Of a stretch of DNA of 64,000 nucleotides, positions 15,400 to 16,590 are shown in pieces. Source of the DNA: Prochlorococcus sp. AG-409-L18 (lineage in GTDB: Bacteria; Cyanobacteriota; Cyanobacteriia; PCC-6307; Cyanobiaceae); assembly GCA_003215535.1 (NCBI GenBank), contig QCKG01000005.1:1-64000 (forward strand). The letters are read 5' to 3'. Every line of letters begins with the position of its first letter. Position 1 is the first letter of the stretch. The notes beneath the pieces were generated by a model. That model was not told the origin of the DNA, did no database searches, and saw nothing but the letters and a program-made list of their open reading frames with translations. Made by a program: the position numbers and the translations under genes.

Positions 15400-16590
15400 A
15401 TGCTTGCTAAGGCTATTTGGGAAAAGTTAAAACCTGAAGAATGGCCATTGCGAATTGCTGATCTTCCTGAAGGAAGTGCATTGGTTGGAGGAGCTGTTCG
15501 TGATGTGATTCTTAAAAGGATTGAGCAAAGGTTTGATCTTGACTTTGTAGTACCTTCTGAAGCAGTCAAACTTGCGAATAGATTTGCTCTTAACTTAGGA
15601 GCTAAGTGCATAGTCCTTGATTATGAAAGAGATATTGCTCGTTTAATAATTGATAGATGGACAATTGATTTTGCTAGTTATCAAAAACATGGTTTCGAGA
15701 AAGATCTTTTGCGTAGAGACTTCAGGGTTAATGCAATTGCATTAACCCTGAAGTCTTGCCCAGAAATTATTGACCCTTCCCATGGCATAAAGGACTTAAC
15801 TCAAAAAAAATTGGTTGCTTTAAGTGAACAAAACCTAATAGATGATCCATTGAGATTACTTCGTGCATTCAGGCTAATGGCTGAACTAAATCTGTCGATT
15901 GACCCTCAAACAAAACATTGGATTTTGGCCAATTCAGCACTGCTTTCAAGATCTGCACCTGAGAGAGTTCAAAGTGAGTTGAATCTTTTAGTAGCTGCTC
16001 CATGGGCTGATGAAGTTCTACCCATCCTTAAAGAAAGCGGCTTATTGACTTTGTGGAGTGATCAACAAGAGACTTGCAAAATGAGTCCTCCTTTCAAAAA
16101 GGATGCACGGGCTTTATCAGCAAAAGAAGCGGCTTTAGCATTGCCTTTAGCTCGTTTGACATATTTATTAAGTGATGATGGATTGCTGCAATTGCGTTTT
16201 AGTCGTAGACAAAGGAATCGCTGTCAATTGCTAAGGAAGTGGCAAAACTATAGTGATGATATGGATTTTCAGAGTCTTAAAGAAGAAGACCGCCTTCAAT
16301 TGCATAAGGACTTAGAGGCTGATCTTCCAGCGCTTTTACTTGGACTCTCTTCTGGAAATCAGAAACTTTGGTTAAGGCGGTGGAGGGATCAAAATGACCC
16401 TTTGTTTCATCCTGCTTCTCCAGTGGATGGACATACTCTTCAGGTGAGTCTAGGTATTCCCTCTGGACCACAACTAGGTAAACTAATTACATATCTATGC
16501 AAAGAAAGAGCCTTTGATCGAGTGCAGAATCAGGAGGAAGCTTTTCTAGCTGCACGTTACTGGTTGAAGCAGAACATCACCGTACTGTGA
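15400..16590 (+). CDS. tRNA nucleotidyltransferase / poly(A) polymerase family (CCA-adding type)
   Basis: This 396-residue protein has the class II nucleotidyltransferase head: ALVGGAVRDVIL, catalytic carboxylates in FDLDFVV, the RRDFRVNAIAL motif and the nucleotide-recognition block DDPLRLLRAFR. It should add or repair the CCA end of tRNAs; tRNA-Asn in this window lacks an encoded CCA, which fits a need for it. GGAGGG precedes the ATG by about 11 bases. A perfect 40-bp palindrome lies inside the conserved RRDFRVNAIAL region. Cyanobacteria may split A and CC addition between enzymes, so the exact specificity is open. Confidence 0.88.
   Translation: MLAKAIWEKLKPEEWPLRIADLPEGSALVGGAVRDVILKRIEQRFDLDFVVPSEAVKLANRFALNLGAKCIVLDYERDIARLIIDRWTIDFASYQKHGFEKDLLRRDFRVNAIALTLKSCPEIIDPSHGIKDLTQKKLVALSEQNLIDDPLRLLRAFRLMAELNLSIDPQTKHWILANSALLSRSAPERVQSELNLLVAAPWADEVLPILKESGLLTLWSDQQETCKMSPPFKKDARALSAKEAALALPLARLTYLLSDDGLLQLRFSRRQRNRCQLLRKWQNYSDDMDFQSLKEEDRLQLHKDLEADLPALLLGLSSGNQKLWLRRWRDQNDPLFHPASPVDGHTLQVSLGIPSGPQLGKLITYLCKERAFDRVQNQEEAFLAARYWLKQNITVL
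15717..15756. repeat. Perfect 40-bp palindrome with no spacer, inside the CCA enzyme gene
   Basis: The left arm, 15717-15736, is AGACTTCAGGGTTAATGCAA, and 15737-15756 is its exact reverse complement, centred on AA|TT. It encodes residues RDFRVNAIALTLKS of the nucleotidyltransferase. In RNA it would form a 20-bp stem minus the few bases needed for a loop, in DNA a cruciform. Flanking bases G15716 and T15757 could add a wobble pair in RNA only. Confidence 0.97.

Follow-up and report, generated by a model that had tools for sequence, protein, structure and literature searches.

The question raised by this locus is how a perfect palindrome of 40 bp came to lie within a conserved catalytic-domain motif of a protein-coding gene. 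The locus was analysed in a window of 64,000 nucleotides (the whole stretch of DNA examined) from Prochlorococcus sp. AG-409-L18, a genome referred to below as G000. The host gene is an intact cca, and its product matched the poly(A) polymerase head domain (PF01743 PolyA_pol, E 3.3e-14) and the neighbouring RNA-binding domain (PF12627, E 2.2e-8), both above the curated cut-off. The motifs VGGAVRD, DLD and RRDFRVNAIA were all found, and the product thus combines the PolyA_pol head with the GG, DxD and RRDxxxNA signatures of a CCA-adding enzyme. Homologs of cca were detected in all 149 relatives searched, the closest being in Prochlorococcus single-cell genomes at a protein identity of no more than 60%. 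A scan of genome contigs with the single cca protein gave no match, and an alignment-based scan gave 80 loci, none of them above 60% identity. In the viral contigs searched, only distant cca relatives were found, and the palindrome core had no match.

The palindrome is the best inverted repeat of the window. Its two arms are 100% complementary, and the runner-up among the spacerless palindromes of the window has an arm of only 7 bp. The whole element is coding, from the third base of R106 to S119 (peptide RDFRVNAIALTLKS). The coordinates and complementarity given in the initial annotation, which had described a spacerless and wholly coding dyad in the RRDxxxNAIA motif of cca, were reproduced. 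As the arms measure 2 x 20 bp with a spacer of 0 nt, the element has the form of a perfect inverted repeat with a short spacer that characterises a product of quasipalindrome correction.

Table 1. Coordinates of the cca gene, its palindrome and the palindromes of the alpha/beta-hydrolase gene (positions without a locus prefix are those of the window)
Feature	Position	Strand	Description
cca, CCA-adding tRNA nucleotidyltransferase, intact	15400..16590	+	396 aa; ORF, Pfam matches, homologs
Perfect 40-bp palindrome	15717..15756	.	AGACTTCAGGGTTAATGCAATTGCATTAACCCTGAAGTCT; RNA form: 18-bp stem, 4-nt loop
Left palindrome arm	15717..15736	+	AGACTTCAGGGTTAATGCAA; codes (R)DFRVNA and AT of ATT; holds the RRDxxxNAIA catalytic-domain motif
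Right palindrome arm	15737..15756	+	TTGCATTAACCCTGAAGTCT; codes ..ALTLKS
Alpha/beta-hydrolase palindrome, this genome	L085 11422-11455		arms 17
Alpha/beta-hydrolase palindrome, relative	L338 2543-2570		arms 14

From base composition, the expected number of spacerless palindromes with an arm of at least 20 is 7.7e-8 per 64 kb and 2.1e-6 per genome, and none longer than 12 was obtained in 20 windows generated under a first-order Markov null. The earlier statement that such a dyad is very improbable by chance in 64 kb is therefore borne out. The palindrome is nevertheless less extreme than this raw expectation, because the encoded peptide is itself self-complementary: conditioned on the encoded protein and on genome codon usage, the exact P of a perfect palindrome at the site is 3.0e-5. 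In the register of the palindrome, codon position 3 lies opposite position 3 and position 1 opposite position 2, and the first two codon positions of R-V-N-A-I-A-L-T-L can pair among themselves, as R(AG)/L(CT), V(GT)/T(AC), N(AA)/L(TT) and A(GC)/A(GC), and I(AT) with itself.

Most of RVNAIALTL is kept among 102 cca homologs, and the residues in the left-arm columns are near-invariant (R, D and N in 100%, A in 92%). Across 108 cca homologs, the mean self-pairing at the site was 9.81/20, compared with a gene mean of 5.35 (sd 0.85), and this 40-mer ranked first of 1134 cca positions for mean self-pairing. An imperfect inverted repeat is thus present at the same site in homologs that are all at least 40% diverged in protein from this cca, and this quasipalindrome accompanies the protein motif because the motif is self-complementary at two of its three codon positions. 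None of the 102 related sequences had a perfect palindrome at the site, the highest self-pairing in any relative was 14/20, and the wobble-to-wobble pairs matched in only ~16-50% of the 102 relatives. What is peculiar to the present genome is the loss of every remaining mismatch. A predisposed site of this kind is not the rule, since the hairpin at L268, when traced in relatives, had a pairing of 4.4/14, which is near chance.

The self-complementary peptide raises the possibility that ordinary synonymous drift simply happened to complete the palindrome. The peptide takes away most of the improbability, as the conditional P indicates, and the central pairs are near-fixed among relatives. However, the pair frequencies observed among the relatives multiply to ~2e-8, and the same genome carries an excess of similar elements that makes coincidence unlikely. 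This excess was measured by counting close coding hairpins, defined as perfect inverted repeats within coding sequence with an arm of at least 12 and a spacer of at most 12, against a null in which synonymous codons were shuffled within genes. In an 864-kb sample of G000, 14 were found where the null gave 0.65-0.67, an approximately 20-fold excess (Poisson p about 2e-14), and five had arms of at least 14, where 0.1 would be expected. As a control, mirror repeats were counted as well; they numbered 2 and were not in comparable excess, and inverted repeats with spacers of 20-32, 60-72 and 150-162 numbered 0, 0 and 1, respectively. As neither control was comparably raised, the enrichment is one of close inverted complementarity. 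Stepwise point mutation would be an improbable route to the cca palindrome (P ~3e-5 given the protein), though not an absurd one if many predisposed sites exist.

The hairpins of G000 include those at L085:11422-11455, L091:2956-2993, L260:7274-7302 and L268:1754-1784. In the alpha/beta-hydrolase gene, spacerless perfect palindromes occur at the same LLK codons in two lineages, and their sequences differ (Table 1); recurrence at predisposed places combined with sequence turnover is a prediction of repeated arm homogenisation. Elsewhere in other cyanobacterial cca genes, perfect hairpins were seen at L116 1370-1407 (17-bp arms, 4-nt loop) and, at a further position, at L110 1715-1744 (12-bp arms, 6-nt loop). 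Very long perfect hairpins were also present outside long ORFs, at L080:866-914 (arm 23), L088:5751-5798 (arm 21) and L079:5219-5259 (arm 19). No obvious terminator T-run was found in the 15 bases examined on each side of the L080 and L088 hairpins.

Close coding hairpins were also in excess in most of the sampled relatives that lack the nuclease SbcCD, with 5 in G003, 3 in G010, 7 in G025 and 6 in G051, against nulls of 0-0.8 each; G070 had 1. These counts bear on the possibility of a laboratory artefact, in which the polymerase used for amplification or sequencing switched template, or the assembly was in error. The same fold-back chemistry is possible in vitro, and the closest cca homologs come from single-cell assemblies. 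Nevertheless, G003 and G051 are single-contig genomes that are at least 99% complete, and as they carry the excess too, it is not simply a product of single-cell amplification. At cca itself, the frame is preserved, as are the conserved residues (ALTL) within the right arm and beside it, and the element is located inside a 104-kb contig. An artefact is accordingly considered rather unlikely.

Two functional explanations, for which the initial annotation had named an mRNA hairpin slowing translation and a protein site, fared less well. The first is that the palindrome was selected as an mRNA hairpin or attenuator-like element, with an effect on the speed of translation or on mRNA decay. Its predicted fold is indeed very stable (18-bp stem, -41.6 kcal/mol for 100 nt, z -7.1). 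However, the hairpin was conserved in none of the 102 relatives, in which pairing was not kept by compensatory changes or at synonymous sites (maximum 14/20, mean 9.8/20). The coding hairpins of the same genome are, moreover, spread all along genes, and those of the six genome sets lacking SbcCD have no preferred codon phase (14/12/10), so that selection for an mRNA structure is very unlikely. A preference of the hairpins for the wobble-to-wobble phase, considered during the analysis, was dropped on the same counts. The second explanation is a site for a dimeric DNA-binding protein. The dyad symmetry is perfect, as such a site might be expected to have, but the palindrome occurs once in the 1.775-Mb genome even when up to 3 mismatches are allowed, with no further copies of the kind that a repeated operator would have. 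It also lies in the middle of a gene, its 20-bp arms much exceed typical half-sites, and it is missing from the 102 relatives. A binding site is therefore hardly credible.

The palindrome is observed and wholly coding, it lies at a predisposed site and is missing from relatives, and close perfect hairpins are in excess in coding sequence across the genome. On these grounds, it is probably a quasipalindrome that was perfected by template switching during replication. Such perfection appears to be frequent among genes of this group. The conserved motif would leave a half-matched inverted repeat in the cca genes of the group. At a stalled fork, the nascent strand could then have folded back, or moved over to the sister strand, so that one arm was copied from the other. 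Such copying would have erased the mismatches that were left, most of them at wobble positions, and may also have altered one or two residues of the variable stretch K118-S119. The motif would still be encoded, and a palindrome of 40 bp is short enough to persist. Template switching had been proposed in the initial annotation as an inverted copy of the left arm, and it is the best supported of the options listed there. The wholesale nature of that copy was not upheld: the relatives already encode NAIALTL across both arms, so homogenisation of a pre-existing quasipalindrome is favoured. From these data we infer the switching event itself, its direction, which leans towards the left arm as donor, and a single event rather than several.

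As to the direction of copying, the left arm was ~325 times likelier than the right as native sequence when homolog residue frequencies were multiplied by codon usage. The right arm contains the rare codon CTG, which accounts for 7% of Leu codons, and ACC, which accounts for 17% of Thr codons. Its residues K118 and S119 occur in 10% (10/102) and 16% of homologs, respectively; an earlier impression that K118 was never present in relatives proved wrong when more homologs were included. These values lean towards the left arm as the donor and the right arm as the one that was rewritten. The direction is not decisive, because CTG and TCT are already present in the right arm of the closest homolog (L003, 60% identity), whose left arm has GACTTC. 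The right arm is the less native of the two by this ratio, but at 60% protein identity, where synonymous sites are saturated, the closest relative is too distant to display simultaneous clustered changes, and the homologs provide no before-and-after pair with a clustered multi-base change.

The nuclease SbcCD was considered as a possible context for the hairpin excess. In G000, SbcD was not found, a result that is provisional as the genome is 90.1% complete, and for SbcC there was nothing beyond a weak ATPase-like match. Other Prochlorococcus genomes gave the same picture, and several other cyanobacteria carry both. By family cut-offs, the sets without SbcCD were G000, G003, G010, G025, G051 and G070, and those bearing it were G071, G102, G118 and E. 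coli K-12, the last of which was assigned there from the control list. There were 36 close coding hairpins in 1564 kb of the six sets lacking SbcCD, as against 6 in 731 kb of the four bearing it (binomial p 0.008), a contrast that is confounded by phylogeny and G+C. In the SbcCD-bearing G071, the close class numbered 4 and was not above the class with spacers of 20-32, which numbered 6. The palindromes that SbcCD is known to cut in vivo are far longer than these. Because of this difference in length and of the confounding, the SbcCD contrast is a lead and not a conclusion. Loss of ExoI was also tried as a cause and rejected, since the PF08411 model matched just 1 of 14 control genomes and its absence here carries little weight. 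ExoVII (xseA) is present in this genome. It is possible, though doubtful, that loss of the hairpin nuclease SbcCD in the Prochlorococcus lineage, perhaps along with the absence of a nuclease of the ExoI type, allows short quasipalindromes to undergo template switching that marks coding genes lastingly. Arm homogenisation would then be a recurrent source of clustered codon changes, and conserved peptide motifs with self-complementarity, such as NAIAL, would be hot spots. As a lead, the lineage-wide hairpin excess coinciding with SbcCD loss is more interesting than the palindrome itself.

Template switching at quasipalindromes is established in E. coli, where the Ripley model, the thyA hotspot and the lacZ QP5/QP6 reporters have been described (PMC7202029, PMC6357072). 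As in that system, an imperfect inverted repeat with a short spacer would have become perfect in cca, and the arm length is close to that of the reporter (20 bp in cca, 18 bp in the reporter). Unlike in E. coli, the mutation event in cca is deduced from sequence, a conserved motif of the catalytic domain dictates the quasipalindrome and the repeat is spacerless. PMC6649704 and PMC8604942 both cite van Noort et al. 2003; the former credits that work with the finding that short perfect inverted repeats are over-represented, which is put down to template switching, and a genome-wide excess of such repeats was found here as well. In yeast, template switching has been traced in coding genes (PMC8604942), with homogenised arms, amino-acid change and recurrence at the same place across lineages, as is proposed here; those cases were based on close strains and reconstructed ancestors, whereas cca was compared with distant relatives. 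Template switching has also been invoked for coding palindromes in the mitochondria of Nematomorpha (PMC6649704), where, as in cca, both arms of perfect inverted repeats encode conserved residues; those palindromes are up to 284 bp long and are present in four species, in contrast to 40 bp in one genome. It can also build RNA stems (PMC8794818), and in both settings a single mutation event can complete a stem; there, the stem is a functional RNA, whereas no conserved RNA function was seen for the cca palindrome. The literature search returned no paper tying Prochlorococcus to template switching or coding palindromes. The cca palindrome is a long, spacerless and extreme case of a known kind, and a new mechanism is unnecessary.

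The cca locus illustrates how conservation of a protein motif can give the underlying DNA the form of a quasipalindrome in advance, and how replication errors can go on to perfect it while the essential gene around it stays intact. The excess of coding hairpins in marine picocyanobacteria lacking SbcCD suggests a measurable and little-considered source of mutation in very abundant ocean organisms. If this is true, picocyanobacterial genes would, as a result of such events, show spurious evidence of selection or of RNA structure.
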